From an uncultured Roseburia sp. (GTDB taxonomy: Bacteria > Bacillota_A > Clostridia > Lachnospirales > Lachnospiraceae), in assembly GCA_900753715.1 (NCBI GenBank), contig CAAEAE010000136.1:1-15672 (forward strand): a stretch of 15,672 bases of DNA. The letters run 5' to 3'. Of the stretch, positions 1 to 15,583 are shown in pieces. The translations under genes were made by a program, and so were the position numbers. The notes beneath the pieces were generated by a model that saw nothing but the letters and a program-made list of their open reading frames with translations, did not search any database and was not told the origin of the DNA. Numbering within the stretch: position 1 is the stretch's first letter; every line of letters starts with the position of its first letter.

Positions 1-157
1 AGCACTTTCCGAGAGCATCCGTTCTCTCGAGGATCTGCCCCTCTGTAAAATTCTTGAGGGTCACTACTCTGGTACATTTGTGAGTGTGGCACTTTATCAT
101 AATGCCGTTCATAGCCGGAGCCGTCCTGTCTCCGGTCAGTGCGTAGGAGATCCGCAT
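1..157 (-). CDS. Partial gene of unknown function, running off the left edge
   Basis: An open frame begins at ATG 157 and stays open for 52 codons to the window edge. The protein starts MRISYALTGDRTAPA and contains KCHTHKC (a CxxxxxC/His cluster) followed by RVVTLKNFTEGQ, which reads like real protein rather than a shadow. It overlaps the last 22 bases of the nuclease gene (stop at 136) in another frame. No clear ribosome binding site precedes ATG 157, so the true start may have been lost and this may be the surviving C-terminal part of a backbone gene joined to the cargo. I do not recognise the family. The short Cys/His cluster could bind metal, but this is a guess. Confidence 0.4.
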   Translation of the reverse strand, partial: MRISYALTGDRTAPAMNGIMIKCHTHKCTRVVTLKNFTEGQILERTDALGKC

Positions 158-1092
158 GGATTGTTTAACAACTCACAGAGTTCTGAATATGATATATATC
201 GAATATCTTCAATCTTGGATATCTCCGGAGTCAACAATTCTACTTCACGGAACAATTCATAATCCCTCTTATATTCCTTGTTTTCCTTAGTATCCAATTT
301 AATTTTTCCAGCACCAACGACTCCATATCCCTTGTGATAATACAAAACATAATCACCTTTTTGAAAGCTGTTTACCGATCCAGCTACAGATCCGTAAGCG
401 CTAACCTTATGTTTGAGGAACATATCCCAGATGGAGTTCTCATCATATGCAAAGTTGGTATCAAATATAATACCTTTTCTATCTTTCGGATTTACATGCG
501 TATCATATGGTTTTGAAAAGAATTCAAAATAATACTCATCACCTATCAAATAAATACGGTACGGAATAAAATCGATACTAAGCCCTTGTGCTTTCCAATA
601 ATCAACAGCAGAAACCAACCTGCTATCAGAGGAGCTACCAACTATTATCATTTTCTGCTCTCTATTGAATTGTACGTAATCCAAAGCAGAATCCAGCCCA
701 AATGCATCTTTGTGTGCTTCTTTCAATTCCTGTTTGGGGAGCTTATATTTATCACAATACTTTGCATACGCCTCGTTCAAATCATAATATGACTTCTGAC
801 CCCAAGATTGGGCATAGCGCATCACCTGTATGGTTGTATCGCCCTGAACCTCTCCACGTTTTAATTCAAACAGAACAAGATTACCGTTCTTATCTAATGC
901 ACAAAGATCTGGCTCCTCCTGCCTAGCTCTTTCTTGAAAAATACGCATCAGCTGACCATCTTCTATATAGAAATCGCCAAGATTTTCAGCCAAAAGATTT
1001 TCAAGATCCTTCTCTTTTTTTGCCAAGGATTCAAAATCAGCATAAGGCATTAACTCAATTGTATTATCTTCTTTACTGAGCCTATATAACAT
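136..1092 (-). CDS. PD-(D/E)XK nuclease (NucS/DUF91-like) with C-terminal EVE/PUA-like domain
   Basis: This 318-residue protein is probably a DNA endonuclease. The N-terminal half carries a clear PD-(D/E)XK site: PD at 61-62 and ELK at 76-78, followed by Q89-x3-Y93, a pattern seen in NucS/DUF91 and RecB-type nucleases. Residues about 205-310 look like an EVE/PUA-type module (KGDYVLYYHKGYGVVGAGKI around 245-265). In known proteins such modules read modified bases in DNA or RNA. The start at ATG 1092 has a GAGGGTG ribosome binding site 7-8 bases upstream. The gene lies 18 bases after recQ and is very likely co-transcribed with it. The last residues (CGSPTH) overlap another frame that continues off the left edge, so the natural C-terminus may have been altered by a junction. 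The nuclease fold is fairly sure, the EVE-like assignment moderately so, and a role in restricting modified DNA is inference. Confidence 0.72.
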   Translation of the reverse strand: MLYRLSKEDNTIELMPYADFESLAKKEKDLENLLAENLGDFYIEDGQLMRIFQERARQEEPDLCALDKNGNLVLFELKRGEVQGDTTIQVMRYAQSWGQKSYYDLNEAYAKYCDKYKLPKQELKEAHKDAFGLDSALDYVQFNREQKMIIVGSSSDSRLVSAVDYWKAQGLSIDFIPYRIYLIGDEYYFEFFSKPYDTHVNPKDRKGIIFDTNFAYDENSIWDMFLKHKVSAYGSVAGSVNSFQKGDYVLYYHKGYGVVGAGKIKLDTKENKEYKRDYELFREVELLTPEISKIEDIRYISYSELCELLNNPCGSPTH

Positions 1093-1110
1093 AGTTAAAC
1101 ACCCTCTTAC

Positions 1111-3600: not shown

Positions 3601-3618
3601 GCTTAATACCAAATGCCG

Positions 3619-4299
3619 TTACATATCAAACGGTATCTTATTCCCTTCCAGTTGCTTCTTTAGCTTTTTAAGCTTACCCTCTGTAATACTCTCTGAATAA
3701 TGCAATCCCTCATAAGTTGAATGGAGAACGGGATACTTTCCCTTGGTTTTTAGAATATAGTGTTCCGAAATCATCCAGTCGACTACGGTTCTTACTGCAT
3801 CTCCTGAAAGCGTCTTATAGATTCCATACTCCGGAATCTTATCCAGCTTATTGTCCTGGATCCGTTTGTTCTCCTCACCACATAGGACCTCGCAAAATAC
3901 TGTCATACCATAGAATTTAATCCTGCTAACATTTTGCCAAGCCTTAACAATATTGAATACAACGTCATTCAGATCCAGTTCACCATAGAGAACCGGATTG
4001 GCTTCAGGAGCCACAAAGAATACCCTGTTTTTGGTCCTGGTCATTGCAACATAAAAGAGTCTACGTTCTTCTGCATAATCTATAGACCGATCCCCTTTTA
4101 TAACCAACGAAAGCACCGGATCATCTTCAACTTTTGTCGGGAAGCCATATGTTTCATTTTTGCCGTTTATGACTATTACATCATCATATCCCAGTCCCTT
4201 TGAAGAATGCTTTGTTCTTTTTCCGGTATTAACGAATAGATACTGAATGCCGAAGGTGCGGTAAAAGGTATTACTAATCGAACCATTACTATTCCCCAT
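3619..4299 (-). pseudogene. C-terminal remnant of a UvrD/Rep-type SF1 helicase with an RQC-like domain
   Basis: Only the end of an SF1 helicase survives. Visible are the late motif HSSKGLGYDDVIVING (about residues 31-46) and motif VI AEERRLFYVAMTRTKNRV (about 76-93). After these come about 130 residues whose YGIYKTLSGDAVRTVVDWMI and YPVLHSTYEGLHY segments resemble a RecQ RQC winged helix. Walker A, Walker B and all of domain 1 are missing. The first ~25 residues after ATG 4299 do not look like helicase, and the ATG has no ribosome binding site, so the reading frame is open but the gene is a truncation product. The combination of a UvrD core with an RQC tail beside recQ suggests the two helicases once worked together. 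The fragment cannot hydrolyse ATP on its own. Confidence 0.8.
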
Positions 4300-4611: not shown

Positions 4612-4881
4612 AATACGTCTTTTTTTGCATGTACTGCTGTATCTATATTTGAAAAATATGGCACAAACGGCATTACGGAATATGAACTCCGTAACGGTAT
4701 AGCAGAAATATCCGATGATACGCAGATGACACTGTTTACTGCCACTGGACTTCTGCCTGGAAGCAAGTTTATCCTACATCAAGCACGACTGTTCAAGTAT
4801 TCCTCCGCGAGAATAAACACCCCGCTTGAAGTCCAAGTATACGCCCTGTCGCGTAAGCCCTCGCCTGTTACGGCGTTATAG
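4612..4881 (+). pseudogene. Plus-strand gene fragment of unknown function
   Basis: A plus-strand frame is open from 4612 to TAG 4881 with no usable start codon or ribosome binding site. From 4639 to about 4775 it encodes a convincing protein-like stretch: IFEKYGTNGITEYELRNGIA followed by EISDDTQMTLFTATGLLPG and SKFI. After about 4775 it runs antisense through the end of the glycosidase gene and loses protein character. The best explanation is the internal part of a backbone gene cut on its downstream side by arrival of the glycosidase segment. It is the only credible coding signal on the plus strand in this window. I do not recognise the family. Confidence 0.4.
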
Positions 4882-6485
4882 TTCTCAGCAAAGCCGCTTT
4901 GCTTTGCCATTTCAAGGAATTTTCGGGCGGTCTCTTTGGCGAGGTCAATCTCGCCGCACCTGCTCAGTCCGTCGCACAAAATAACCGTTGACGGTGCCCA
5001 TATCGGACCGCGCCAGTAGCCGTCAGGTCGGTAACAATTGCTGTCAAGGCTCTCCGTCGCAAAGCCGTGATCAGTGATGAATCTTCCACATTTTAACTTG
5101 TCTATCATATTTTTCCGATACTCTTTCGGCAATCTGTCGCCCAAAATCAGGCATAGATACGGCAGAAGACTTTGGTTTTCAACAACCTTGTGAGTGCCGC
5201 TCTGAAATGCTGTCGGCAGACCGTTTACAAAGCACTTCTCCAAAAAATTGCTTGAGGCCTTCTCGAATCTTGCTTTCCAATTGTCGCTCTCTTGAGGCAT
5301 ACCAAGGCTCTCTGCAAGTTCGGCGAGCATAGCCATCTGCACAAGTAAAAACGCCTGCAGATCTGGAGAAGCTATCGGCGGAACAGTTGCAAATACCGTC
5401 GAGTTGTCCCAGCCCGAATCATTTCCGTGGACATATTCACAGACACCGTCGCCATCAAAATCGCGGTAATTTATCCACCAAAGCGTCTGCTTTTCAAGTG
5501 CAGAGTATGCCTCTGTAAGCTGATTTTTAGTGAGCGTCATACCGTTTTCAAGTATTTTCTTGAGTGTCCAGCCGTGTATCGGCGGCTTGACATAGTTCCA
5601 TATCACCTTTGAATCGTTCACGCTGTCAGGAAGTCTGCCCGATTTATCCTGAAAATCAAACATTATCATGAACTGTTCCCATGCCAAAGACGGATTTTTG
5701 TATGACAGCGCAAGCGCGTTGAAGCAGTGATCCCAGCTCCAGACATTTGTCATGTGGTTTTTTGACATCAGCATCGCATGGCGCTTTAAGAACCCTCGCG
5801 GCATAACATATGCCGACCAGTTGATATACGCACCGAGAACTGATACTTCTTCATATTCTTTCGGAAGTATGGGATAGCTTTTGTAAAACTCCGAAAACTC
5901 ACGCGCGACTTTCTCGCGACAGGCTTCAAAATCGTACTCGGGACATTTTCTGTCCCACTCTATCTGCGTCTCCTTAATTATCAGCAAAAAGCCGTCCGTA
6001 CCGGCAATATTCAGCCTTGAAAACTCCGACGACTGCTCAGACCAATTCTGTTCTAAATAAATATCTCCCTCCTGCGCCCATACGACATAGCTCGTGTTGT
6101 TTTTGTAACAGTTTTCGGCATAGCAATGGCGTCCGTCCGCGTCGAACTCATAAATGTAGTCATAAGGTCCGCTTTCGGTCATAAAGTCAAGAGTCAATAC
6201 AGCGGATCTGCCCCCGCGAATAATAAGCGTTTCGGGGTCGGGGAAGCAAAAATCACATTTGAAATCTCCCGAAGCGAGAGACAGCGAACCGCCGTCTAAG
6301 TCTGCGGAAAGCTCGTCGCCAGAAAAAATAAACTTAGCGACGATAGGGTTCTGCGTCGACCCGCTGACATTCTTCAAATAGATACCGTGTTCAATTTTAT
6401 GCCCTTGCCACCAATCCTGCAGCTCGGCGAGAGCCATATACGAGCCGAATCGAGAAAACGGGACCTCGGAAAGATAGAAATTCAT
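4779..6485 (-). CDS. GH63-like alpha-glycosidase (trehalase/glucosidase superfamily, alpha/alpha barrel)
   Basis: This is a cytoplasmic glycoside hydrolase of 568 residues with no signal peptide or membrane segment. The N-terminal ~200 residues look like a beta-rich domain. The catalytic barrel shows the superfamily signatures WSWDHCFNALAL (249-260), GNDSGWDNST (354-363, proposed general acid Asp360), GYWRGPIWAPST (489-500) and FAENYNAVTGEG (532-543, proposed general base Glu534), ending YTWTSS. This set is typical of GH63 and related glucosylglycerate, mannosylglycerate or glucoside hydrolases, so the exact alpha-linked substrate cannot be told. The start at ATG 6485 has AGGAG about 9 bases upstream, and a near-perfect promoter lies at 6544-6572. 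It is monocistronic, flanked by gene fragments on both sides, and looks by eye more GC-rich than its neighbours. It probably arrived separately as cargo. Confidence 0.85.
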   Translation of the reverse strand: MNFYLSEVPFSRFGSYMALAELQDWWQGHKIEHGIYLKNVSGSTQNPIVAKFIFSGDELSADLDGGSLSLASGDFKCDFCFPDPETLIIRGGRSAVLTLDFMTESGPYDYIYEFDADGRHCYAENCYKNNTSYVVWAQEGDIYLEQNWSEQSSEFSRLNIAGTDGFLLIIKETQIEWDRKCPEYDFEACREKVAREFSEFYKSYPILPKEYEEVSVLGAYINWSAYVMPRGFLKRHAMLMSKNHMTNVWSWDHCFNALALSYKNPSLAWEQFMIMFDFQDKSGRLPDSVNDSKVIWNYVKPPIHGWTLKKILENGMTLTKNQLTEAYSALEKQTLWWINYRDFDGDGVCEYVHGNDSGWDNSTVFATVPPIASPDLQAFLLVQMAMLAELAESLGMPQESDNWKARFEKASSNFLEKCFVNGLPTAFQSGTHKVVENQSLLPYLCLILGDRLPKEYRKNMIDKLKCGRFITDHGFATESLDSNCYRPDGYWRGPIWAPSTVILCDGLSRCGEIDLAKETARKFLEMAKQSGFAENYNAVTGEGLRDRAYTWTSSGVFILAEEYLNSRA

Positions 6486-6543
6486 AATAGTAACTCCTAT
6501 TAATATATTGACTTAGTTGGTTTTCGACTTTGTAAATTGAATT

Positions 6544-6572
6544 ATATTACCATATAGCAATGATTTTGTCAA
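6544..6572 (-). promoter_or_regulatory. Sigma-A promoter of the glycosidase gene
   Basis: Reading on the minus strand, -35 TTGACA (6572-6567) is separated by exactly 17 bases from -10 TAATAT (6549-6544). Transcription would start near 6537, about 50 bases before ATG 6485. The match to consensus is close to perfect, so expression may be strong unless repressed. Confidence 0.75.
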
Positions 6573-6584
6573 TTCAAGTTGACA
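6567..6584. repeat. Inverted repeat over the glycosidase -35 box (possible operator)
   Basis: TGTCAA (6567-6572) and TTGACA (6579-6584) form a perfect 6-bp inverted repeat with a 6-base spacer. One arm is the -35 hexamer itself. A repressor binding here would block RNA polymerase, which would fit a sugar-responsive gene. No cognate regulator is evident in the window, and short arms like these can arise by chance. Confidence 0.35.
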
Positions 6585-6721
6585 CATTTACCGCAAGGGA
6601 AAATCGCGTCGAGAAGGTCGTCTGATTTTCTCGCTTCCCGGTCTGCTTTTGTGATACCGCTCGGCTTGCGATCATCTTCTGTGTCATCGGTGTGCAACTT
6701 ATCGCTTATCCACTGATTACA
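6569..6721 (-). pseudogene. C-terminal gene fragment of unknown function
   Basis: A 50-codon minus-strand frame with no start codon ends in TGA 6571-6569, inside the glycosidase promoter. Its product is hydrophilic and protein-like (GITKADREARKSDDLLDAIF then PCGKCVNLN), with a CxxC pair near the end. It lies between the sigma-like gene (stop 6731) and the glycosidase. It appears to be the 3' end of a backbone gene whose 5' part was deleted. Because its stop overlaps the -35 region, the join with the glycosidase segment is probably close to 6570. Family not recognised. Confidence 0.4.
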
Positions 6722-6730
6722 TTAGTTTTT

Positions 6731-7333
6731 TTAATGTCGAAAGTGACAATCACGGGTCTTTTTTACCAAAACAGGTACAATTGCAGTCTTTTTTATCTCC
6801 ATCTGAACCTTGATCTTTACCTTTGCACGTCTTACCCTCTGTGCCGCGGATTCATACTGAATCCCTTCCTCTTCTGCGATCTCTCCGATATCCTTCTCCC
6901 CGGAAAGATACCCTCTGAATATTCTTAACTCGTTTCTTCCCAGAATACACAGTTGCTGATTGAAAAGTTCATAATCTGCCCTCATTCTGCGAAGCGTGTA
7001 TGCATCCTTCCGATATTTTTCGCCACGGTCAACACCTTCCAGTACATCTCCGGAAAAATCACAGGCAATAATCGCGTCTCGGGTGATGACATTACTGATT
7101 GCCGTATCCGCCGTAATATCACTATGAATGCCCGATGTCTGCACCCATACTCCCAGATCTCCATGATTTTTCTTTCGGTTATAAGCTTTTTCACTCTCAA
7201 TCATGTAGCGAAGCCATTCCGTGTAGCCATCTACGATTCCAATAAAATTCGAATAATTCATACAGATGATATCCACCCTTCCGGCAGCATCTGCCCTTGC
7301 GTAAATCTCAATAATACTTGCCTTTGCCACCAT
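6731..7333 (-). CDS. Sigma-70 region 4-like HTH regulator
   Basis: This is a 200-residue protein starting at ATG 7333, chosen because AAGGAGG sits 5 bases upstream; the frame is open 11 codons further but without a ribosome binding site. Residues about 133-175 form a helix-turn-helix of sigma-70 region 4 type: NELRIFRGYLSGEKDIGEIA, then a second helix with SAAQRVRRAKVKIK. The first 130 residues do not show a recognisable sigma region 2, so it is unlikely to be a complete sigma factor. It resembles the sigma-like or ArpU-like regulators found on Firmicutes mobile elements and phages. It stands alone, with the AbiE terminator upstream and a truncated gene downstream. It probably regulates element genes, but the target is unknown. 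Confidence 0.6.
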   Translation of the reverse strand: MVAKASIIEIYARADAAGRVDIICMNYSNFIGIVDGYTEWLRYMIESEKAYNRKKNHGDLGVWVQTSGIHSDITADTAISNVITRDAIIACDFSGDVLEGVDRGEKYRKDAYTLRRMRADYELFNQQLCILGRNELRIFRGYLSGEKDIGEIAEEEGIQYESAAQRVRRAKVKIKVQMEIKKTAIVPVLVKKTRDCHFRH

Positions 7334-7405
7334 CGAATCCTCCTTGTTTGAATTTGACGTAAGCATCAGCGAAACCGGTTTGCTCTTCCTTACAAATAGT
7401 ATTCT

Positions 7406-7429
7406 ACGACTTTCTATGGATTAAGTCGT
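7406..7429. repeat. Inverted repeat upstream of the sigma-like gene
   Basis: ACGACTT (7406-7412) and AAGTCGT (7423-7429) are perfect 7-bp arms around a 10-base spacer, about 75-95 bases before the ATG at 7333. No T-run follows, so an operator is more likely than a terminator. Apart from this and the terminator at 7488-7513, the 292-base gap between the sigma-like gene and abiEii holds AT-rich sequence and a small hairpin (CCGCC 7578-7582 / GGCGG 7590-7594), with no gene. Confidence 0.35.
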
Positions 7430-7487
7430 TCCCCAAAGAATGGACAAAAAGTACAGTGGGAATGGACTTTAATCTTCTTACTCCCAC

Positions 7488-7513
7488 AAAAAAGACAACC
7501 ATTTCTGATTGTC
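7488..7513 (-). terminator. Rho-independent terminator downstream of the AbiE operon
   Basis: On the minus strand the 8-bp stem GACAATCA / TGGTTGTC (one G-U pair) closes a GAAA tetraloop and is followed immediately by six Ts (7493-7488). It lies about 110 bases after the abiEii stop and separates that operon from the sigma-like gene. Confidence 0.75.
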
Positions 7514-7625
7514 CTTCTGCATAAATTCTATTTCACTCCGACATATTCCATATATGTTACCATATATTTTCCTGTTTCCGCCCTGTCCAGGCGGTTGGGT
7601 ACGATATTCATAGTTCTTATATAAA

Positions 7626-8468
7626 TCATAGTAAATTCTTCTTCATTATTTTCTCTACATAATCAATCACACTTTTCCACTCTAGTTCCCCTACATAAAA
7701 ATTGCTCTTTTTAAACTGCTCCCAAAGTTCTTCCATATGTAAATCATCAGATATCAAATGTAATGTAGCTTCTATATCATCCTTGGTAAAAATAGTTTTC
7801 CTCTTTTCACAGGTAGTAGAAAATGCATCGTATAAAACCCGCTTCTCTATCTGTTCTTCATAGAAGTTCATGATACTGTAAACATCATAAAAATCTCTTA
7901 ATCTGGTATTCGCGATTCCCCTATTTATTATTGTCTGCATTTTTTCAGCAAGCAATGTTTCCTTGTTATATGTAAGAACGGAAATCGTTCTATCCTCAAA
8001 CATCAATTTATAGTCGTATTCTATTGCCTTTGGTGTGATTACATCATCTGTAGAAATATCGATTTTAATTGGTTGACGCATCCTGTCCAACGTAGCTTCC
8101 AACATTACGCGAATGCCTGGGTAATCAAACTCTTCCATAATAGTTCTTGTGCTTTTAATTTGAAAGCTAACATTATCTTCCAGCGGGATGTTACAAATTT
8201 CTTCAATTATCCTCTGTACATCAGCCTCATTTAGTAGTAATGCTTTTACCGTTGTATCAATATCCATCGTAGCTCGCATATCCACCCCAACAATTGACGC
8301 TACCAGCATCCCACCCTTAAGAATAAAATTATCTCGATATGATGATATAGATACTCTTTCCAGAAATCTTTCCATCATAAAATTTCGAATTAGCGTAGTC
8401 GCTTTATTACTGTTCCCATCCGAAATATTTCTCACCTTATCTTTTAATTGTCTTGATGAACTAATCAC
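7626..8468 (-). CDS. abiEii: AbiEii-type nucleotidyltransferase toxin (type IV toxin-antitoxin, abortive infection)
   Basis: This 280-residue toxin belongs to the AbiEii/DUF1814 nucleotidyltransferase family. Such toxins are understood to add nucleotides to RNA (tRNA in related enzymes), stopping growth after phage infection. Diagnostic motifs are FILKGGMLV (48-56), the catalytic MDIDTT with two aspartates (69 and 71), a third acidic strand IKIDIS, and the late motif LLAEKMQTI ... TRLRDFYDVY. The start is GTG 8468 in a GTGA overlap with the antitoxin stop, with GGAGG 5 bases upstream inside the antitoxin gene. This implies translational coupling and fixed stoichiometry. Length and motifs look complete, so the toxin is probably active. 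No in-frame disruption is seen. Confidence 0.9.
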   Translation of the reverse strand: MISSSRQLKDKVRNISDGNSNKATTLIRNFMMERFLERVSISSYRDNFILKGGMLVASIVGVDMRATMDIDTTVKALLLNEADVQRIIEEICNIPLEDNVSFQIKSTRTIMEEFDYPGIRVMLEATLDRMRQPIKIDISTDDVITPKAIEYDYKLMFEDRTISVLTYNKETLLAEKMQTIINRGIANTRLRDFYDVYSIMNFYEEQIEKRVLYDAFSTTCEKRKTIFTKDDIEATLHLISDDLHMEELWEQFKKSNFYVGELEWKSVIDYVEKIMKKNLL

Positions 8469-9064
8469 ACTAACACCTCCACGTACTTCATCACTTCATC
8501 TCGAATTCCCATCATATCCGCATATACAATCAACTGCGATAGCTTTTTGTCCTTCGATGACATATATTCCTTGATAGCCGTTTGAAATACTTGTACTTCA
8601 TACTTATTACGATTCATTATCAAATCGCAAATGCAACGCTCCTTATCGTAAACCTTAACTAAATTTCCACTGCTGGATGCAATCTCACAAATTCCTATTT
8701 TGTATAAATCCGGTGCCGCATATTTCACCGAAACATCAAAATCATTATCCTTAAGATGGCTCGCATTATATCCCTGTGGCACAGTAACACACACAGATGA
8801 ATACTCCCTATCTGTCAAACCGTGCAAATATAGTGCTGTTTCTCCGGAATAAATAATCGCACCATTTCTTTGTTGCAAAATGAACAACTCATCCGGCCAC
8901 ACATCATCCGTTATATATAAACCTCTTGAGACTTTCTCCATACCGTGTTCCTTAATATATTTTGCAACATAGGTCTTAGAAATATCTTCACTACACACCA
9001 AAGAGGTAATAAGATAACCGTTATATTTTTCAATAAAATTTTCAATTTTTTCCTTTTTAGTCAT
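8465..9064 (-). CDS. abiEi: AbiEi-type antitoxin / transcriptional repressor
   Basis: This is the antitoxin partner of AbiEii, 199 residues from ATG 9064 (AGAGGTG ribosome binding site 6-7 bases upstream; an upstream GTG at 9073 is less likely). The N-terminus is a winged helix-turn-helix (KIENFIEKYNGYLITSLVCS ... YVAKYIKEHGMEKVSRGLYI) that in known AbiEi proteins binds the operon promoter. The C-terminal part, from about residue 60 (GAIIYSGETALYLHGL), carries the antitoxin domain. In type IV systems antitoxin and toxin are thought not to bind each other. The gene is driven by the promoter at 9099-9127, and the inverted repeat at 9177-9208 is a possible autoregulatory site. Confidence 0.88.
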   Translation of the reverse strand: MTKKEKIENFIEKYNGYLITSLVCSEDISKTYVAKYIKEHGMEKVSRGLYITDDVWPDELFILQQRNGAIIYSGETALYLHGLTDREYSSVCVTVPQGYNASHLKDNDFDVSVKYAAPDLYKIGICEIASSSGNLVKVYDKERCICDLIMNRNKYEVQVFQTAIKEYMSSKDKKLSQLIVYADMMGIRDEVMKYVEVLV

Positions 9065-9098
9065 TCTATTCACCTCTTCACTTTACCTCTACGCTTTA

Positions 9099-9127
9099 AT
9101 TATATGATTTAAAAGCGAGAAAGTAAA
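9099..9127 (-). promoter_or_regulatory. Promoter of the abiEi-abiEii operon
   Basis: On the minus strand -35 TTTACT (9127-9122), a 17-base spacer, and a perfect -10 TATAAT (9104-9099) precede ATG 9064 with a leader of about 28 bases. Confidence 0.7.
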
Positions 9128-9176
9128 CTCTTTTTTATTTTTTCAAAATAAACGAAGACATTCGTCTAAAATCAAC

Positions 9177-9208
9177 TTGATACAAAAAGTATTATGATTT
9201 TGTATCAA
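9177..9208. repeat. 11-bp perfect inverted repeat between xre and abiE
   Basis: TTGATACAAAA (9177-9187) and TTTTGTATCAA (9198-9208) are perfect arms around 10 bases. ATCAACTTG is also repeated directly at 9171 and 9204. The site is about 50 bases upstream of the abiE -35 box and about 65 bases after the xre stop. It may be an AbiEi operator or a weak terminator for xre; no long T-run follows on either strand. Confidence 0.55.
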
Positions 9209-9273
9209 CTTGCATTATCTCAGGGGCTATATCGTTCTCATCCCCATCAACCAGACAACAAAATTATTATCTC

Positions 9274-9591
9274 TTATTTGACTCCAGTCAACAATTTCAC
9301 CTGCTCCACAGCAACTTTCCTAAGTTCCTCATTCTGCATTCCCTGTAGCAGCAATGCCACCTGCATCACATCTTCACCGATTTCTGTTTTCTCATCGTCT
9401 GCCAGGTAAGCAACCGTTGTACCAAGTAATGCTGCAATCTGCTTTAATATACTAATCTTGATATCAATCTTATCGTTTTCATAAGCAGACACTGTAGATT
9501 TCTTTGTCAAAAGTGCCTCTGCCAGTTCCTCCTGTGTCATTCCCATCTTCATTCTGCATTCTCTGATTCTCATTCCAATTGTCTTTTCCAT
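9274..9591 (-). CDS. XRE-family (Cro/C1-type) HTH transcriptional regulator
   Basis: This is a 105-residue DNA-binding regulator. Residues about 5-62 are a classic Cro/C1 HTH: RIRECRMKMGMTQEELAEAL, KSTVSAYEND, then LKQIAALLGTTVAYLAD. The C-terminal 40 residues (MQVALLLQGMQNEELRKVAV) form an amphipathic helical tail, probably for dimerisation. ATG 9591 is preferred because GGAGA lies just upstream; ATG 9603 is also possible. It precedes abiE in the same direction, separated by about 200 bases and an inverted repeat, so it may be independent. Its own upstream region carries a 16-bp inverted repeat (9635-9711) that could be its operator. Confidence 0.82.
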   Translation of the reverse strand: MEKTIGMRIRECRMKMGMTQEELAEALLTKKSTVSAYENDKIDIKISILKQIAALLGTTVAYLADDEKTEIGEDVMQVALLLQGMQNEELRKVAVEQVKLLTGVK

Positions 9592-9634
9592 CTTTCTCTC
9601 CATTTCCGGAGCAAAACGGAAGCAGACGCAATGA

Positions 9635-9711
9635 AGGAGTCGACAAAACGAATACCAATAAGACCGGTAGCTAATATGCCACCTGGCTCTATTTCCGTTT
9701 TGTCGGCTCCT
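9635..9711. repeat. 16-bp long-range inverted repeat upstream of xre
   Basis: AGGAGTCGACAAAACG (9635-9650) and CGTTTTGTCGGCTCCT (9696-9711) match as an inverted repeat at 15 of 16 positions, with a 45-base interval. A third, degenerate copy (GGAGCAAAACGGAAG) lies at 9608-9622, next to the gene start. Inside the interval a further 6-bp stem (minus strand GGTGGC / GCTACC, loop of 6) can form. Candidates are operator sites for the XRE protein, a structured leader RNA, or the ends of a small mobile element. Confidence 0.55.
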
Positions 9712-9723
9712 AATAGTTCTATG

Positions 9724-10075
9724 CTAATTCCAGCTCGTTACAAACTCTTGATATGCAGCGCCGGCTCTGATGGTTCCTGCCAAATCTGACGGTTCAACTG
9801 CTATCTCACTTATTTGATTTTAATAATTTGCAGCTCTTTTCATGGGTTTCATTTTCCCCGGTTCCTTGCTTTTCTGAACACTCACCCGGACCTGTCCGGC
9901 TCTTCCGTCCTTTTCAGAACCTCGTCTGTTTTCCAGAACCATGACTCTCTCTTCATCTACAAGAACCACAATTTCCCTGTTACATTTCCCACAGGTAATG
10001 TCTATATTACATTGTCCCTGACACTTCATCAGAATCCTGCCACATACCGGGCAGCTGACGTATCTCTTCGATCAT
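9724..10075 (-). pseudogene. Com-like zinc-ribbon gene, frameshifted
   Basis: Joining ATG 10075 (MIEEIR) to the frame that begins at 10056 gives EIR-SCPVCGRILM ... CNIDITCGKCNREI. This is the two-CxxC ribbon typical of Com-family small nucleic-acid-binding proteins of Mu-like and other mobile elements. The two parts are in different frames. Removing TCAG (four bases, about 10055-10058) would restore the family-like EIRCPVCG, so a small insertion is the likely lesion. The second frame continues to TAA 9822-9820 with a basic tail (KSKEPGKMKPMKRAANY). Beyond that stop the same frame stays protein-like to TAG 9724 (SEIAVEPSDLAGTIRAGAAY), suggesting either a nonsense mutation or a second fragment. 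A shorter product could start at ATG 10029, but it would lack the first CxxC. Confidence 0.5.
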
Positions 10076-10152
10076 TAGTGGTTCTCATGAAAAGCAAAAT
10101 AAATTCAATGCCTTCGATGTCTGTTCCGATGGGTTCTTAATTTCTTATCCAT
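10029..10152 (-). pseudogene. Small LexA-controlled gene, apparently frameshifted
   Basis: ATG 10152 has an excellent GGAGGG ribosome binding site 5 bases upstream and follows the LexA-boxed promoter. As read, it encodes only 15 residues (MDKKLRTHRNRHRRH, stop at 10105). Skipping one base after codon 5 opens a frame to TGA 10029 encoding EPIGTDIEGIEFILLFMR followed by TTNDRRDTSAARYVAGF. That frame looks more like protein and would give a product of about 40 residues. Either a short leader peptide or a frameshifted small gene is possible; I favour the latter because nearby genes are also frameshifted. It overlaps the start of the Com-like gene. Function unknown. Confidence 0.4.
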
Positions 10153-10176
10153 TCATACCCTCCTTTTGTCAAATAA

Positions 10177-10189
10177 GAACATATGTTCG
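10177..10189. promoter_or_regulatory. LexA (SOS) box
   Basis: GAACATATGTTC (10177-10188) is a perfect palindrome, with a further C on its minus-strand 5' side. It matches the Gram-positive LexA/DinR consensus CGAAC-N4-GTTCG at all but the last position. It lies just downstream of the -10 box at 10201-10206, where bound LexA would block transcription until DNA damage. Confidence 0.8.
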
Positions 10190-10200
10190 TTATGATTGTT

Positions 10201-10229
10201 ATTATAATCATGTCCTTTTTAACGGTCAA
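10201..10229 (-). promoter_or_regulatory. Sigma-A promoter controlled by the LexA box
   Basis: On the minus strand -35 TTGACC (10229-10224), a 17-base spacer, and a perfect -10 TATAAT (10206-10201). Predicted start near 10194, so the LexA box covers about +5 to +17. It drives the small gene at 10152 and the Com-like remnant. Confidence 0.8.
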
Positions 10230-10254
10230 GTGCATTATACTGCACCCGGTTATG

Positions 10255-10292
10255 AAAAAGGGCTCTACCCCAGTATTTATCAGGGATAGAGC
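10255..10292 (-). terminator. Rho-independent terminator of the small xre gene
   Basis: On the minus strand GCTCTATCCC (10292-10283) pairs with GGGGTAGAGC (10271-10262; one G-U pair) around an 11-base loop, followed by CC and five Ts (10259-10255). The stem overlaps the last codons of the gene and insulates it from the SOS promoter immediately downstream. Confidence 0.8.
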
Positions 10293-10477
10293 TCCTCGAA
10301 AGATATTTCAAAATAATTGATCAGCCGTTTTACTGTGTCTACAGAAGGATTTGCTCCTTCTTCATTTTCGATTGTAATAATCGTTCGCTTACTGATTCCG
10401 GTAGCCTCAACCACCTGATCTATCGTAAGCCCCGTTCCCTGTCGTATTTCCTTCAACCTTGACTTATGCTTCACCAT
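10280..10477 (-). CDS. Small XRE-family HTH regulator
   Basis: This compact protein of about 65 residues is essentially one HTH domain: HKSRLKEIRQGTGLTIDQVV, ATGISKRTIITIENEEGANP, VDTVKRLINYFEISFEELY. Such minimal Cro-like regulators are common on mobile elements, where they control excision, transfer or toxin-antitoxin genes. The frame is open from GTG 10489, with ATGs at 10483 and 10477. I chose 10477 for its spacing from a weak GGAA, but the start is uncertain by a few codons. It ends inside its own terminator. It lies next to the LexA-controlled promoter, which it might also regulate (inference). Confidence 0.75.
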   Translation of the reverse strand: MVKHKSRLKEIRQGTGLTIDQVVEATGISKRTIITIENEEGANPSVDTVKRLINYFEISFEELYP

Positions 10478-10504
10478 AGACATTTCCACACAGAAAATAG
10501 ATTG

Positions 10505-10722
10505 CTATTTCTTTTTGTGCGGTTTTTCGTCGGTGTTAAGCACGCAAAGCACTCCCTTCGGAAGGACATACAGAACTGTTCCCTTTGCAGTATCTCCAAT
10601 CTTGTCATACAATCTTCCGGTGCTGTAGCTTTCACCCACTACCGTGTAAGGGCTGTTTGTGATTATACATTATCAGGTAAGGTGTCCGTTAAAAATGACA
10701 GGTCGAATTCCTTGCTTGCCTA
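10505..10722 (-). pseudogene. Frameshifted C-terminal remnant of an unrecognised gene
   Basis: Two adjoining minus-strand frames make one protein-like sequence. Frame one (from 10720) reads KEFDLSFLTDTLPDNV and stops at a TAA. Frame two picks up directly as ITNSPYTVVGESYSTGRLYD, then KIGDTAKGTVLYVLPKGVLC, to TAG 10507-10505. A small indel near 10665 separates them. No start codon exists upstream, where the CTAAAG repeats and the exonuclease stop begin. It therefore appears to be the 3' end of a backbone gene, cut by arrival of the four-gene operon and then frameshifted. The basic tail (DEKPHKKK) lies about 30 bases before the small xre gene. Family not recognised. Confidence 0.45.
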
Positions 10723-10750
10723 AAGCCTAAACTAAAGGCTAAAGCTAAAG
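10719..10750. repeat. CTAAAG short tandem-like repeats at the end of the exonuclease gene
   Basis: Four CTAAAG copies and one CTAAAC (starting at 10720, 10727, 10732, 10739, 10745) cover the exonuclease stop codon and the junction with the downstream remnant. The cluster marks the likely left border of the four-gene operon and could reflect slippage or a recombination point. It is too irregular to call a defined element. Confidence 0.4.
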
Positions 10751-11293
10751 CAATGGATATTTATCAATAGCATGTTGCAAATAACTCATGATACGAAGCT
10801 CGTCCATCGCATCTGTCAATGCATTATGTAACTCCATATAATCATCCTCGCCGAACATATAGAGTATATCCTCAACCTTATATCCACTCTTCAACCTTCC
10901 TGTTCCACAGCATTTTGCACTTGAAGGTATCGCAGGATTATGTTGCTTGTATGCCGCTAATCGCAATACATCATGCCAATTATATTGGTATAATTCCGGT
11001 AAACAGCGTGCATCAAAAGACGCATTATATGCAAAAACAGACTTCACACCGTTATCATTCAAATATGATTTAATTGCTTCTATCGCTTTTTTCTTTTTTA
11101 ACAGTTCTGGAGTTTGTCCCTTAAGGAACATGGCATAACTATACATTCCACCAACTCTGGCCGCTTCATCAAATATAATGTATTTACTGTCTATCGCTTC
11201 AAAAACTCCATCTTCCGCTATAACAATACCGATGGACATAACTTCATTTTCCCAGTTTGTTTCTGTATCTATAACTGCAAATCTTTCAGCCAT
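10745..11293 (-). CDS. DEDDh 3'-5' exonuclease (DnaQ/RNase T superfamily)
   Basis: This is a stand-alone exonuclease of 182 residues. All four metal-binding acidic residues and the catalytic histidine are present: ExoI VIDTET (Asp9, Glu11), ExoII YNASFD (Asn90, Asp94), and ExoIII HNALTD (His156, Asp161). It should remove nucleotides from 3' ends of DNA or RNA using two metal ions. A CC pair (128-129) may be incidental. It starts at ATG 11293 with AAAGGAGG 7 bases upstream, inside the 3' end of the helicase gene (25-base overlap), so it is co-transcribed and probably translationally coupled. It is the last gene of the four-gene operon. Next to a 3'-5'-type SF1 helicase with its own nuclease domain, it may trim ends that the helicase exposes; that role is inference. 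Confidence 0.88.
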   Translation of the reverse strand: MAERFAVIDTETNWENEVMSIGIVIAEDGVFEAIDSKYIIFDEAARVGGMYSYAMFLKGQTPELLKKKKAIEAIKSYLNDNGVKSVFAYNASFDARCLPELYQYNWHDVLRLAAYKQHNPAIPSSAKCCGTGRLKSGYKVEDILYMFGEDDYMELHNALTDAMDELRIMSYLQHAIDKYPLL

Positions 11294-13086
11294 GCAGTAC
11301 CTCCTTTCGGCTTATAATACTTTGCCAGTTGATGTTTAGTTATCGTTTTAGCAACGCAATCCAAAAACTTATCTTTATCAGGAATTGATATTTCATACAT
11401 GTCATTCGTTCGTGTATTCCACAAAACTCCCTTTTTAAGCCTTTTTGCCACGACATAACATGCACACTGGAGAAAATGTTCGTGAGTAAGCTCACTTACA
11501 AATTTCAATTCGTATACAACCTTGTTCTTTATTACATCAGCATATCCAACTGCAGAAAATTCGAAGATTCCTCCTTTTTTCTTTGCAAATTGAATCTCAC
11601 AAATTTCCTGAGAATCATCTTGTTTTGTAAATATCTCAAGTAGTCTATTCTCAAGTTCTACGCGTTGCTCATCTTCCACTATTTTTCGGTTAACTTGCCT
11701 TATATATCGGTTTTGACTGGTTTCTAGAGAAATCAGATACAGAATCTTTTTGTCCAGCGTTTTATATTTTGTAGCATCAACCTTTTTATCTTTATTCAGT
11801 AACTTATAGAGTTCAATATCTTTATCAATATCATATTTCTCAAAAAAAGAAGCTTCCTGATATATACCAATACACGGTGCCAGGTCTATCAAATCCTCAT
11901 GGTTTTCAATTTTAATAACTGTAGTATCTTCCCTATCAATCTTCTTGATGTCGAGCAATCCAAAGCATTCTTCAACGTCTTCCTTATATTTAAAATCAAA
12001 CATCTCAGAAATTTGCATATTTTTAAATTTGTGATTCGTTTTGTTCGGAGTAGACAAAGACTGCTCCGAAAGCATTGCCTCGTCATGCTCTACAAAAATT
12101 ATCTGTTCTTTTCCTCTGCTAGCAGCTACACAAAAAATGTTTCTAAGTATTTCATATTTTTGTTCTGGCATATCCCTGCGAACTGCCCAATAGCTTTCCG
12201 TAAAATCAAATACTACGCAAATTTTACGTTCCAATCCCTTACTGCTGTCATATGTTGTAAAGATTGCAGTTTCTTTACTTGGTTCAGTCGATCCTGATCT
12301 ATCAGAATCGGATATACTGGCATATACCGTTTTTTTGTTATACTTCGGACTGTATTTATCTTCTAATGTATTTAGTGTCCGAGACATTAAGCCATTTCTG
12401 GCACCCAAACAAAGAATATCCTCTGGTTGCTGCTCAGACAAAAACTTTACAACCTTTTTTTCTGAGAGATATGAAATCTTACATTCCTGATTTACTCCAA
12501 TGATTTTCTTTTCCCACACACGACCAAGCATTTCAGCAATATCTCTGGAAAGCCTAAAGCATTGTGTAAATTCCAGATCTTCACGCTTTCCAACAAATCC
12601 ATCGATGAACTGTTGTACATCTAACGCAGTTTTATCATATATTTTCTGCTTCATGTCACCAACAGCCACAATCTGCATATCGGGATTACATTCCTTGATA
12701 TATGTAAGCATATCGGAAATCTCTTGATCAATATCCTGATATTCATCAAGTACCAGCAAATCATATGCTCCAACGCTTGGTTTTTTATTGAGAAAAACCT
12801 GTATTAAATCAGATATGCCCGCTTTAATGCCTGTTCGTATAAGACATAGATAAGCAAATCCATGATAATTCGTTACAGTGATATTTTTCCCCTTTATTTT
12901 TTCCTTGGCGTCAATCTTAAGCAATTTGTTATATGTCAAATACAGTATCCTTTTATTTCGAGGAAACGCCATGCATAACTGTTGAATAGCCGTAGTCTTA
13001 CCACTGCCCACGCATGCATCAACCAAAACATTGTTACCTGTCAATGCAGAATCTATAAAATTTTGTTGTTCAACAGTTAATTGCAT
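11269..13086 (-). CDS. SF1 (UvrD/Rep-like) helicase fused to a RecB-type PD-(D/E)XK nuclease domain
   Basis: This 605-residue helicase-nuclease is the core enzyme of the operon. Helicase motifs are Q-motif TVEQQNFI (4-11), Walker A ACVGSGKT (24-31), LTYNKLL (50-56), Walker B LVLDEYQD (111-118), motif III VGDMKQKIY (142-150), motif V TYDSSKGLER (278-287) and motif VI VAASRGKEQI (320-329). The core is compact, lacking the large 1B/2B insertions of full-length UvrD. The last ~100 residues hold a RecB/Cas4-type nuclease site: GYAD (Asp517), YELK (Glu526, Lys528) and Q-x3-Y (Gln540, Tyr544). The protein should unwind DNA 3' to 5' and cut it, like a one-chain miniature of AddAB. The start at ATG 13086 has GGGAGG 5-6 bases upstream and overlaps the previous gene by 10 bases. 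All motifs look intact. Confidence 0.88.
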   Translation of the reverse strand: MQLTVEQQNFIDSALTGNNVLVDACVGSGKTTAIQQLCMAFPRNKRILYLTYNKLLKIDAKEKIKGKNITVTNYHGFAYLCLIRTGIKAGISDLIQVFLNKKPSVGAYDLLVLDEYQDIDQEISDMLTYIKECNPDMQIVAVGDMKQKIYDKTALDVQQFIDGFVGKREDLEFTQCFRLSRDIAEMLGRVWEKKIIGVNQECKISYLSEKKVVKFLSEQQPEDILCLGARNGLMSRTLNTLEDKYSPKYNKKTVYASISDSDRSGSTEPSKETAIFTTYDSSKGLERKICVVFDFTESYWAVRRDMPEQKYEILRNIFCVAASRGKEQIIFVEHDEAMLSEQSLSTPNKTNHKFKNMQISEMFDFKYKEDVEECFGLLDIKKIDREDTTVIKIENHEDLIDLAPCIGIYQEASFFEKYDIDKDIELYKLLNKDKKVDATKYKTLDKKILYLISLETSQNRYIRQVNRKIVEDEQRVELENRLLEIFTKQDDSQEICEIQFAKKKGGIFEFSAVGYADVIKNKVVYELKFVSELTHEHFLQCACYVVAKRLKKGVLWNTRTNDMYEISIPDKDKFLDCVAKTITKHQLAKYYKPKGGTAWLKDLQL

Positions 13087-13808
13087 AGGTCCTCCCTTCT
13101 TAACGCCTTATCAAGGATTTTATAGAACAGTTCATCAAATGCAGGAACATTTTTATATGAAAGAAATCCTCCTCTGTCTGTAGTAACTGCAAGTGCTGTC
13201 TCAAGTTCTTCCATCAGTCCCTGCTTGGATATTTTAACCGGAACAAGATATTCATTTTCTCCAAGCAATTTTTCAGAACCATCTTTAATCTGATATTGCA
13301 TTTGGAAGCTGACATATCCCTTTATAAGTTCTGCAAATTCCTCAGGCGTAAACTTTTTTCCATCTATTACAAAAGCTGTATCATAATCTCTGTCTTCATC
13401 TTCGATTATGCTAATGTTACCCTTTGACTTTAGAAAATAGGATGTACTCCACTCTCCCTTGTGCTCTTCAAGTGTTTTCGTGCAGACACCTTCCACAATT
13501 TTACGAAATAATTTCTGTGCAGTATCAGCACCATCTTCTCCCGTCTGCGATATCAGTCTAAACCGATACTCTCCATCCTTTTCATTTGCCTCCCAACTGA
13601 CAATTCCACCTAGAACCACATGCTCAATTTCAAATGTATGAATTTTTCCATTGGGCTCTATAACTGACATATTCTTGGCATAGGTAAAGCTATCATCTAT
13701 TCCCATATCGTGTAGTGCCATTTTATTGTGACAATCAAAACAATAGGAATGATTACCAATACTTATCTTAGCCGGATTCTTTTTACAAATCTCGCATGTA
13801 TCTCCCAT
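13077..13808 (-). CDS. Zinc-ribbon protein of unknown function in the helicase/exonuclease operon
   Basis: This is a 243-residue protein. The N-terminus has two CxxC pairs (Cys5, Cys8, Cys23, Cys26: CEIC ... YCFDC), a treble-clef or ribbon fold that likely binds zinc and nucleic acid or a partner protein. The rest is not recognised. It is acidic, beta-rich in the first half (HTFEIEHVVLGGIVSW) and has a helical C-terminus (DELFYKILDKALRRED). There is no signal peptide or membrane segment. ATG 13808 follows GGAGGG by 4 bases, and that ribosome binding site overlaps the stop of the upstream gene (9 bases away). Its own stop overlaps the helicase start by 10 bases. Strict coupling suggests it is a subunit or regulator of the helicase-nuclease, perhaps a recognition or loading factor (inference). 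Confidence 0.68.
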   Translation of the reverse strand: MGDTCEICKKNPAKISIGNHSYCFDCHNKMALHDMGIDDSFTYAKNMSVIEPNGKIHTFEIEHVVLGGIVSWEANEKDGEYRFRLISQTGEDGADTAQKLFRKIVEGVCTKTLEEHKGEWSTSYFLKSKGNISIIEDEDRDYDTAFVIDGKKFTPEEFAELIKGYVSFQMQYQIKDGSEKLLGENEYLVPVKISKQGLMEELETALAVTTDRGGFLSYKNVPAFDELFYKILDKALRREDLCN

Positions 13809-13817
13809 AGCACCCTC

Positions 13818-15041
13818 CTAGAATTTCATTAATTCTTCAAGCATAGCCTTACGTCTTGGATAAGCCTGTCTGTATTTTTCAGCACGCGCTTCTGCTACAT
13901 CATCGCCTCCTGGATATCTCTGAATCCACTTAAGCAGCCCTGCAAGTTTTCTGTAATCAGATCTTTTATTTCCATCATGCGCCACACGGTCTGCTTTGCA
14001 TGTAAGAACTGTAAGACACCTTTCCGGATACAGTTTTTTCAATTTTTTCTCGTATGCTTTTATCAGATCTGTATCTTCACAGGATTCTACGATATCCATA
14101 ACAAGATCATATCTGTCTTCCTCTGCATACCAGCTGCTTGCTCTATAATCCGTTTTCTTAATCACACCAAATATTTCCTCTCGAGCTGTGGGCCGCTCTT
14201 CTTTTGAAAAATTTGATTTATACTCTTCCCAAAGTTCCATATTCCCAACTGCAGCACGCATGGCCAGTTTCAGATTTTCAAAATACTTTTCCTGATTACC
14301 ATGGTCTTTATATATATGCATCAGTTTTTCACGGTACTCATTTCTGCCCCATCTCTGATCTTCGCGCTCCGCAAGTTCCTCATAAATTGCAATGGACTCA
14401 TCAATATTGCCGTAGTCTAGTTCAATCTTGGCAAGGGTCTCCTTAACAAAATAACTCTTAATTGTGCCGGCATACTGACGCACCTCATCGATAGGATATT
14501 TCAGTTCTCCCATAAGAGTCAGCACTCGTTCCTTACACCTTGGCAAATGAAATTCAACATGAAAATGATCTTCCGATTTCTCAAAAAGTTCTATCTTCTC
14601 TTTCAGAAAATTCATTTTCTTATTTAGGAGTTCTTCTTTCTTGAAGTGCTCCATCATATATCTGTAGAGTTCATCCTCCATATAATCGATAACAGAACCA
14701 TCCAGATTCTTAAGAAACCATTCCAGCATCTTGGCATGATTTATTTTAGGATCATCTGCAGCATATACCACATCCCAGGCACTGAAAACGTAACAAACAA
14801 AATCCTGAGTCTCCCCATCGGAATCATCCTTATCTGTTTTCGCCCATTTCAAAAATGCTTTGTTAGCCAGTTCAAACAATTCCTTATATTGTCCCTGTCT
14901 TCCAAGATCAGCTGTGGCCTCAGTCATAAGACTTGTCATATCGCTCCACAAACCTCTGCAATTATAATAATCAACAAAACCTCTTCTGCTGTAAGCTGCA
15001 AAAATATGGTTAATTTCATCTCTATATTCTTTAAATTCCAT
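13818..15041 (-). CDS. Helical-repeat (TPR/SWIM-associated-like) protein, first gene of the operon
   Basis: This is a 407-residue, highly charged and almost wholly alpha-helical protein. Its middle part contains TPR-like helix pairs (ETLAKIELDYGNIDESIAIY, EKLMHIYKDHGNQEKYFENL). The C-terminus (LIKAYEKKLKKLYPERCLTV ... YRQAYPRRKAMLEELMKF) closely resembles the helical region found in SWIM zinc-finger proteins, but no SWIM CxC...CxH motif is visible. Such repeats usually act as scaffolds or sensors. The start is ATG 15041, where GGAGG lies 5 bases upstream; the frame is open a further 17 codons without support. The extended -10 promoter at 15075-15083 precedes it. It is followed 9 bases later by the zinc-ribbon gene. 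A role as partner-binding or phage-sensing subunit is inference. Confidence 0.68.
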   Translation of the reverse strand: MEFKEYRDEINHIFAAYSRRGFVDYYNCRGLWSDMTSLMTEATADLGRQGQYKELFELANKAFLKWAKTDKDDSDGETQDFVCYVFSAWDVVYAADDPKINHAKMLEWFLKNLDGSVIDYMEDELYRYMMEHFKKEELLNKKMNFLKEKIELFEKSEDHFHVEFHLPRCKERVLTLMGELKYPIDEVRQYAGTIKSYFVKETLAKIELDYGNIDESIAIYEELAEREDQRWGRNEYREKLMHIYKDHGNQEKYFENLKLAMRAAVGNMELWEEYKSNFSKEERPTAREEIFGVIKKTDYRASSWYAEEDRYDLVMDIVESCEDTDLIKAYEKKLKKLYPERCLTVLTCKADRVAHDGNKRSDYRKLAGLLKWIQRYPGGDDVAEARAEKYRQAYPRRKAMLEELMKF

Positions 15042-15074
15042 AATGCCTCCATTATGTCCCGGCTTTTTAAGGCC

Positions 15075-15083
15075 ATTATAACA
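15075..15083 (-). promoter_or_regulatory. Extended -10 promoter of the four-gene operon
   Basis: The minus strand reads TGT then a perfect TATAAT (15080-15075), an extended -10 element (TGnTATAAT). No good -35 lies at 17-18 bases; TTGTCC is 20 bases upstream. Transcription would start near 15068, about 27 bases before ATG 15041. A short GGCCTTAAAAAGCC hairpin lies in the leader. Confidence 0.6.
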
Positions 15084-15130
15084 TAGGTACACGATTTAAG
15101 GGACAAGTTTTTTCTTTTTGCCACACAAGT

Positions 15131-15583
15131 TCACAAGCAGTGCAATCTTATATAGGATCCCTTGGCACCGGTTTCGATATTCTCAAAGGAAATCGGCACC
15201 GGACTGGCCTGTTTGATTGCTTCCATCAATGTAGCATAGCCTTCCACGCTTCCTGTCAGCTCATCTACACCAAGTCTAGGCACCGGCTCACCATCGGTCT
15301 GCGAGATGTCAAACGTACTCACCGGCTTAAAAGCATTTACCTTGATTTCAACAACCTCTTTTACCGGCTCTCCGTCCTTATCAAGTACAGGCTTTCCGTC
15401 TGCGCCAATCTTGTCCTGCTCTCTTTCCATCTTGTAAGGAGCCGGTGCCATCACACGGATTCCCTTCTCGCCTTTCTTTACGAACCGCCCCATTTCCTTC
15501 CATCCGGTAAAAGATTGGCACATGGTGGCATTGGGCTTTTGCATCATGATAAGGATCTGATTGTTAACGGAATATCTGGGCAT
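15131..15583 (-). pseudogene. Truncated ArdC-like antirestriction / ssDNA-binding protein
   Basis: The readable 150 residues match the ArdC N-terminal (ssDNA-binding) domain: YSVNNQILIMMQKPNAT, SFTGWKEMGRFVKKGEKGIR, TFDISQTDGEPVP, GVDELTGSVEGYATL, SPVPISFENIETGAKGSY. Full ArdC-type proteins are about twice as long and carry a metallopeptidase domain with HExxH directly after this point. Here the match stops at GAKGSY (about 15150) and six unrelated residues lead to a stop at 15131. The N-terminus is also damaged: the frame is closed by a TGA eight codons before MPRYS and no ribosome binding site precedes it. The gene was probably split by arrival of the four-gene operon. ArdC genes are typical of conjugative elements. 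Confidence 0.75.

Follow-up and report, generated by a model that had tools for sequence, protein, structure and literature searches.

The core of a four-gene block in the contig CAAEAE010000136.1 (uncultured Roseburia sp., assembly GCA_900753715.1; the whole stretch of 15,672 nucleotides is called the window here) is a two-gene module, which lies beside an unrelated segment in the defence cargo of a mobile element. The module encodes a helicase-nuclease (Hel) and a DEDDh exonuclease-like protein (Exo), and the segment encodes a TPR-like helical-repeat protein and a zinc protein. A first-pass annotation had proposed all four genes as one undescribed system; the block is very probably a composite instead. 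The mobile element that carries the cargo region is probably one of Lachnospiraceae. The genes of the block, and the point at which its two parts appear to meet, are as follows.

15041..13818, minus strand: TPR-like helical-repeat gene, 407 residues from its ATG, judged to lie outside the Hel-Exo module
13808..13077, minus strand: zinc-protein gene, 243 residues, with DUF7686, DUF7713 and a weak DUF7685, also judged to lie outside the module
13106..13107: proposed recombination junction inside the zinc gene; sequence like that of a second locus, L001, stops at 13107
13086..11269, minus strand: Hel gene, superfamily 1 (SF1) UvrD-like helicase with a C-terminal PD-(D/E)XK nuclease, 605 residues
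11293..10745, minus strand: Exo gene, DEDDh 3'-5' exonuclease-like, 182 residues

The two halves of the block were not found together elsewhere. A scan for the TPR family covered 84,980 species genomes and gave 30 loci, in 24 of which 3 kb or more of sequence follows the gene. Neither Hel nor Exo was present in any of the 30, and the zinc gene was present in one (L001), next door to the TPR-like gene. Similarly, no TPR or zinc relative was found in any of 16 Hel loci. This set comprises nine genomic loci (L042-L048, L059 and L061), five viral contigs (L039, L040, L051, L052 and L053) and two plasmids (L056 and L057), with flanks of 0.6 to 10 kb per side. An Exo-only remnant (L049), two weak matches (L054 and L055) and shorter versions of loci already included were excluded from it; it likewise does not extend to the contigs of the nearest relatives of Hel, at about 73-90% identity. 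Homologues of the four genes are, therefore, not together in the loci examined, which is the outcome that the first-pass annotation had itself named as counting against its proposal.

The break between the two halves can be located within the zinc gene. The window from 13107 to 15158 is 88.6% identical to L001, a locus of Fusibacillus kribbianus, and the match stops inside this gene. In L001, the zinc protein is intact (297 residues), and its gene is followed by the start of another, which is complete in L002 and encodes a WYL-domain protein there. The window protein is short by about 54 C-terminal residues present in most of the aligned homologues, and the Hel gene begins just past the end of the L001 similarity. 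As far as the sequence goes, the simplest history would be that Hel-Exo was joined to the TPR-zinc segment by recombination at 13106/13107. The identical 243-residue zinc protein heads a cluster spread over 432 contigs, and the junction may, therefore, be common within one lineage. A perfect 20-bp palindrome was read by eye near position 490 of L001, at the far end of the TPR-zinc segment; it is partly retained at about 15150-15160 of the window, beside the break in an ArdC-like gene.

The four open reading frames of the block were described correctly in the first-pass annotation as lying on one strand, and its coordinates and spacings were exact. The TPR-like and zinc genes are separated by a 9-base gap, the zinc and Hel genes overlap by 10 bases, and the Hel and Exo genes by 25, each of the four starts being preceded by a purine-rich ribosome binding site. 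For the TPR-like gene, the frame is also open from a GTG at 15092. Since homologues of at least 90% identity were found for the TPR-like, zinc and Hel proteins, the four frames are not a product of chance. The tight spacing and overlaps, the good ribosome binding sites and the single strand would all suit one undescribed four-gene system, as would a four-gene arrangement common in one lineage, given the cluster on 432 contigs. Such a system is highly improbable all the same, and it was rejected on three grounds, namely, the 30 TPR loci, the 16 Hel loci and the zinc gene cut short at the junction. The proposal that one promoter serves the block found no support: 14 promoter-like sites were counted against a shuffle mean of 17.6, and none was listed on the minus strand directly upstream of 15041. 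By eye, a TATAAT is seen at 15080..15075, and the same is present in L001. A stable fold was sought directly downstream of Exo, and none was found (z 0.67). The case illustrates that unrelated modules brought together by recombination can resemble one operon, and such look-alikes are a general risk for systems inferred from gene spacing.

The TPR-zinc segment was also followed outside these loci. Neither of its families gave a match in viral contigs, nor did the TPR family in plasmids; the zinc protein gave one weak plasmid record, at 27% over 60%. The zinc family occurred in one of 299 genomes, with neither TPR nor Hel in that neighbourhood, and the DNA of the block itself found no match in plasmids. 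In L021 (3983-10817), a longer TPR relative is followed by an MrfA-like helicase with an MZB domain and a UvrD helicase. L022 and L023 resemble this arrangement; the three are Mediterraneibacter genomes, and the domains were checked in L021 alone.

Hel and Exo, on the other side of the junction, in all probability form a functional unit. Of the 16 Hel loci, 11 contain an Exo relative, as identified by tblastn and BLASTP within the loci and fused proteins. It is fused to Hel in six (L042, L043, L045, L047, L061 and the frame-broken L048), adjoins it in four (L039, L046, L051 and L059) and lies about 0.7 kb upstream in the viral contig L053; the Hel loci without an Exo relative are L040, L044, L052, L056 and L057. 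Among 8000 scored candidates there were 1873 matches to Hel; 120 of these homologues were listed, and 47 of the 120 are fusions of the type helicase-PD-(D/E)XK-DEDDh. On a quick tree of 134 rows, from which proteins shorter than 560 residues were excluded, 7 changes of the fused label are required, of which supported branches force at least five. Each may be a gain or a loss, and the number is unsure on account of several long branches. One of the fusions (P0171, 926 residues) has an additional C-terminal HTH_17, and its hydrophobic tail, noted by eye, could be a membrane anchor.

In L053 (IMGVR_UViG_3300028591_000106, 146 kb), Exo occupies 8732-9280 and Hel 9989-11851. The Exo frame has six stops, all of them TAG, and is open when TAG is read as glutamine; the Hel gene has no stops. 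Judging from these codons, the phage probably reads TAG as an amino acid. A suppressor tRNA was sought in 21.8 kb of the contig, and none was found. A separate Exo relative (49%) lies at 9716-10369 of L049, from genome G208; the same search of this genome did not bring up Hel, and the Exo copy is apparently a remnant.

The domain calls of the first-pass annotation are correct. The parts of Hel lie as follows.

12049..13086, minus strand: helicase core of Hel, residues 1-346
11386..11616, minus strand: PD-(D/E)XK nuclease part of Hel, about residues 491-567, with D517, E526, K528, Q540 and Y544

Hel scores above the Pfam cut-off for AAA_19, UvrD-helicase and PDDEXK_3, the last at residues 518-560. 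The catalytic residues that had been pointed out are invariant. In 44 aligned Hel sequences, the window included, this holds for the Walker A positions G27/G29/K30/T31/T32, for D114-D118 (DEYQD) and for D517/E526/K528/Q540/Y544 of the nuclease; in the corresponding Exo set, it holds for D9/E11/D94/H156/D161 in 48 of 48, which places Exo among the DEDDh exonucleases. With its Walker A, DExQD, motif VI and UvrD-like fold, Hel belongs to the UvrD-like SF1 helicases. The set D...ExK...QxxxY after the helicase domain places its nuclease among the RecB-type PD-(D/E)XK enzymes. The predicted structure of Hel (pLDDT 90.7) aligns to UvrD and FBH1, and strands and helices are found in its nuclease part. 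When the sequences were compared with solved structures, the sole match of Hel was FBH1, over residues 1-86, and Exo gave nothing but unrelated protein G chains at E > 0.05. Exo weakly matched a CRISPR-associated DEDDh family in PADLOC (E 2.3e-11), and its Pfam scan gave nothing above the cut-off.

The place of the block within defence cargo can be read from its neighbours.

15131..15583, minus strand: ArdC-like gene fragment, Pfam ArdcN, one edge of the cargo region
3619..4299, minus strand: C-terminal fragment of a UvrD-RQC gene, Pfam UvrD_C and RQC, the other edge of the cargo region
7626-8468 (AbiEii) and 8465-9073 (AbiEi), minus strand: neighbouring defence cargo, by PADLOC and Pfam AbiEii

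It had been noted that the flanking genes are truncated, and this is borne out by the nearest genome, G001. The ArdC-like gene encodes 150 residues in the window and 411 in G001, with 72% identity between them, and the UvrD-RQC gene encodes 226 residues in the window and 1140 in G001. The block was likewise placed rightly near an abortive-infection pair, as PADLOC matches both AbiEii (E 8.6e-95) and AbiEi (E 9.1e-64). On contig C44 of G001, the window from 1 to 4209 is matched at 98-100% and the ArdC-like gene at the 72% given above, and BrxA, BrxB, BrxC, PglX and BrxL lie between these two matches. Thus, the block lies in a cargo region of the window that, in a related element, is taken up by BREX genes.

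In the families concerned, UvrD-like motors open DNA, RecB-type nucleases cut the strand that is set free, and DEDDh enzymes take off 3' ends. For Hel and Exo, we infer the enzyme activity, the trigger and the defence role. Hel would load on exposed single-stranded DNA or on the DNA ends of replicating invaders and unwind the DNA with ATP, its nuclease domain would cut the freed strand, and Exo would trim the 3' ends, leading to the destructive resection of phage or plasmid DNA. Precedent for such triggers is given in the available portions of the accounts of Gabija, Nhi and Hna, which describe free DNA ends or phage single-stranded DNA-binding proteins.

From its gene neighbourhood, a putative defence role is somewhat favoured as the primary one for Hel-Exo. 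The first-pass annotation had set antiphage defence against a repair or element-maintenance module, and this choice of alternatives is a sound one; the block sits in defence cargo. Apart from the window, four loci carry two-gene copies, and three of these have defence genes nearby. The copy of L051 lies after a type I R subunit, HamA, HamB, GmrSD and Mrr, and that of L039 after a SIR2-Argonaute and a caspase-domain gene; in L059, the CBASS cyclase and E1-E2 genes are about 5.5-8.5 kb off. In L044, where Exo is absent, an AbiEi match lies 1.5 kb away. More specifically, Hel-Exo is tentatively proposed as an undescribed anti-phage system, a DNA-degrading machine with three activities (UvrD-like motor, RecB-type nuclease and DEDDh exonuclease) encoded by two coupled genes or one fusion. 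It would apparently move between unrelated loci as a cassette of one or two genes, and would also have been acquired by a phage, in which the Exo frame is open only with TAG read as an amino acid. If defence is indeed its role, this would make a new helicase-nuclease immune effector of a family that records call nothing more than 'AAA family ATPase', and the natural fusions would allow a direct test of why a DEDDh trimmer joins a RecB-like nuclease.

Several observations weigh against a defence role. Near the fourth two-gene copy (L046), only the candidate family PDC-S01 is present. L039 and L059 have 4.9 kb in common at 98% identity and, for this reason, do not count as fully independent, and the independent loci behind the defence link are few. 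The fused copies sit among ordinary chromosomal genes, and no defence enrichment over a control set was found for them. This test compared 61 selected neighbours of L042-L048 with 58 control neighbours of ten TPR loci (61 of 121 were sampled, and three running to the locus end were dropped). At E 1e-25, 21 PADLOC families, of one member each, were found near L042-L048 and 29 in the control, mostly GajB models among the 25 shown of these 29. The 21 could be traced to genes only in part (AbiEi, KilA-N and subtilase of L044, and PDC-S01 of L046). The neighbour scan excluded L040, L053, L056, L057 and L061, and one neighbour alone was taken for L052. The viral contig L053 has both genes, the viral contigs L040 and L052 have Hel alone, and on two actinobacterial plasmids Hel lies close to a topoisomerase gene. 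Finally, Exo may not be bound to one partner. When viral contigs were searched with Exo alone, five loci came up: L039, L051 and L053 again, with Hel, a weak one without Hel, and L073. In L073, an Exo relative (50%, 9995-10549) lies 98 bases downstream of a 1614-residue protein with DEAD-helicase and UvrD parts (5052-9896), and Exo can, therefore, pair with a different helicase.

These ordinary chromosomal sites, viral contigs and topoisomerase-linked plasmids are the reason why repair is the main rival to defence. According to it, Hel-Exo would serve mobile elements and chromosomes in DNA repair or recombination, resecting or remodelling stalled or broken forks in the manner of MrfAB, AddAB or FBH1, and its defence neighbours would be incidental. 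The resemblance of Hel to UvrD, FBH1, AddAB and AdnAB in predicted structure is in keeping with this, and helicase and DEDDh exonuclease pairs of repair are known (MrfA/MrfB and the exonuclease-bearing DinG, as far as the consulted parts of these sources describe them). It is still rather unlikely, as the distribution is patchy even within genera, which is unexpected for a core repair enzyme, and three of the four two-gene copies adjoin multi-gene defence systems. Another explanation is that Hel-Exo serves its own carrier, degrading the DNA of competing phages or elements or processing that of the carrier itself. The viral contigs L053, L040 and L052 would fit it, as would the serine recombinase-like open reading frames next to Hel-Exo in L039 and the two upstream of Exo in L073. 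This is improbable, given that there were 0 matches in 50,697 phage records and that no recombinase was noted near most fused copies, in a survey which included no family search aimed at recombinases.

The distribution of Hel is patchy. In two overlapping samples of the family of G001, it was found in 7 of 299 genomes and in 8 of 397, and within three genera in 1/6, 1/3 and 2/6 genomes; G001 itself gave no match. In two species of one genus that carry Hel, the similarity ends at the gene boundary. A phylum-wide search with P0194 matched one of 398 genomes, where an Exo remnant alone was found. Searches for the fused Hel in phages, and for Exo in plasmids and phages, gave no match. The names on some of the Hel homologues are Lachnospiraceae bacterium, Roseburia sp. 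and Clostridiales bacterium.

As the first-pass annotation had supposed, no named defence system fits the four genes, and none was named by the PADLOC, Pfam and NCBIfam scans. In PADLOC-DB 2.0, Hel gave weak GajB matches (best E 2.7e-10), and the TPR-like and zinc proteins gave no match. Gabija was rejected, as GajB is matched only weakly and locally and none of the ten window proteins scanned matched GajA. A description of the Hel-Exo module was not found in the literature searched, which left subscription papers mostly uncovered and hence leaves its absence unproven.

The nearest single-protein analogue of Hel is Hna, an anti-phage protein which, in the accessible part of its description, acts by DNA degradation. 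Both have an N-terminal helicase and a C-terminal PD-(D/E)XK nuclease in one protein. However, the helicase of Hna is of superfamily 2 (SF2) and no DEDDh partner is named in that part, whereas Hel is UvrD-like SF1 and coupled to Exo; Hel was, therefore, not counted as an Hna. Nhi is likewise a nuclease-helicase anti-phage protein, encoded by a single gene. No DEDDh partner is mentioned for it in the excerpts consulted, and the comparison is one of descriptions, not of sequences.

Among repair enzymes, MrfAB and the exonuclease-bearing DinG, as partly available sources present them, combine a helicase with a DEDDh 3'-5' exonuclease in two genes or one protein, as Hel-Exo does. Theirs, though, are SF2 helicases, whereas that of Hel is UvrD-like and is followed in the same protein by a PD-(D/E)XK nuclease. 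Membership in MrfAB was rejected, since Hel is SF1 and has no match to the zinc-binding domain that these sources give for MrfA. In AddAB, AdnAB and RecBCD, as in Hel, one chain carries a UvrD-like motor and, after it, a RecB-type nuclease, and both parts were matched. Over the whole span, the root mean square deviation is about 25-28, and the placement of the domains is not comparable. Further, AddAB has a second large subunit, and the other three genes of the block show no likeness to AddB in Pfam and NCBIfam, a comparison that covered the block only.

Two other features of the window may be recorded. Inside the cargo region, a gene for a 568-residue MGH1-like glycoside hydrolase at 4779-6485 has a higher G+C content (0.479). 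At 136-4299, a NucS-like protein (PADLOC candidate PDC-S11), an 833-residue RecQ and the UvrD-RQC fragment are grouped.

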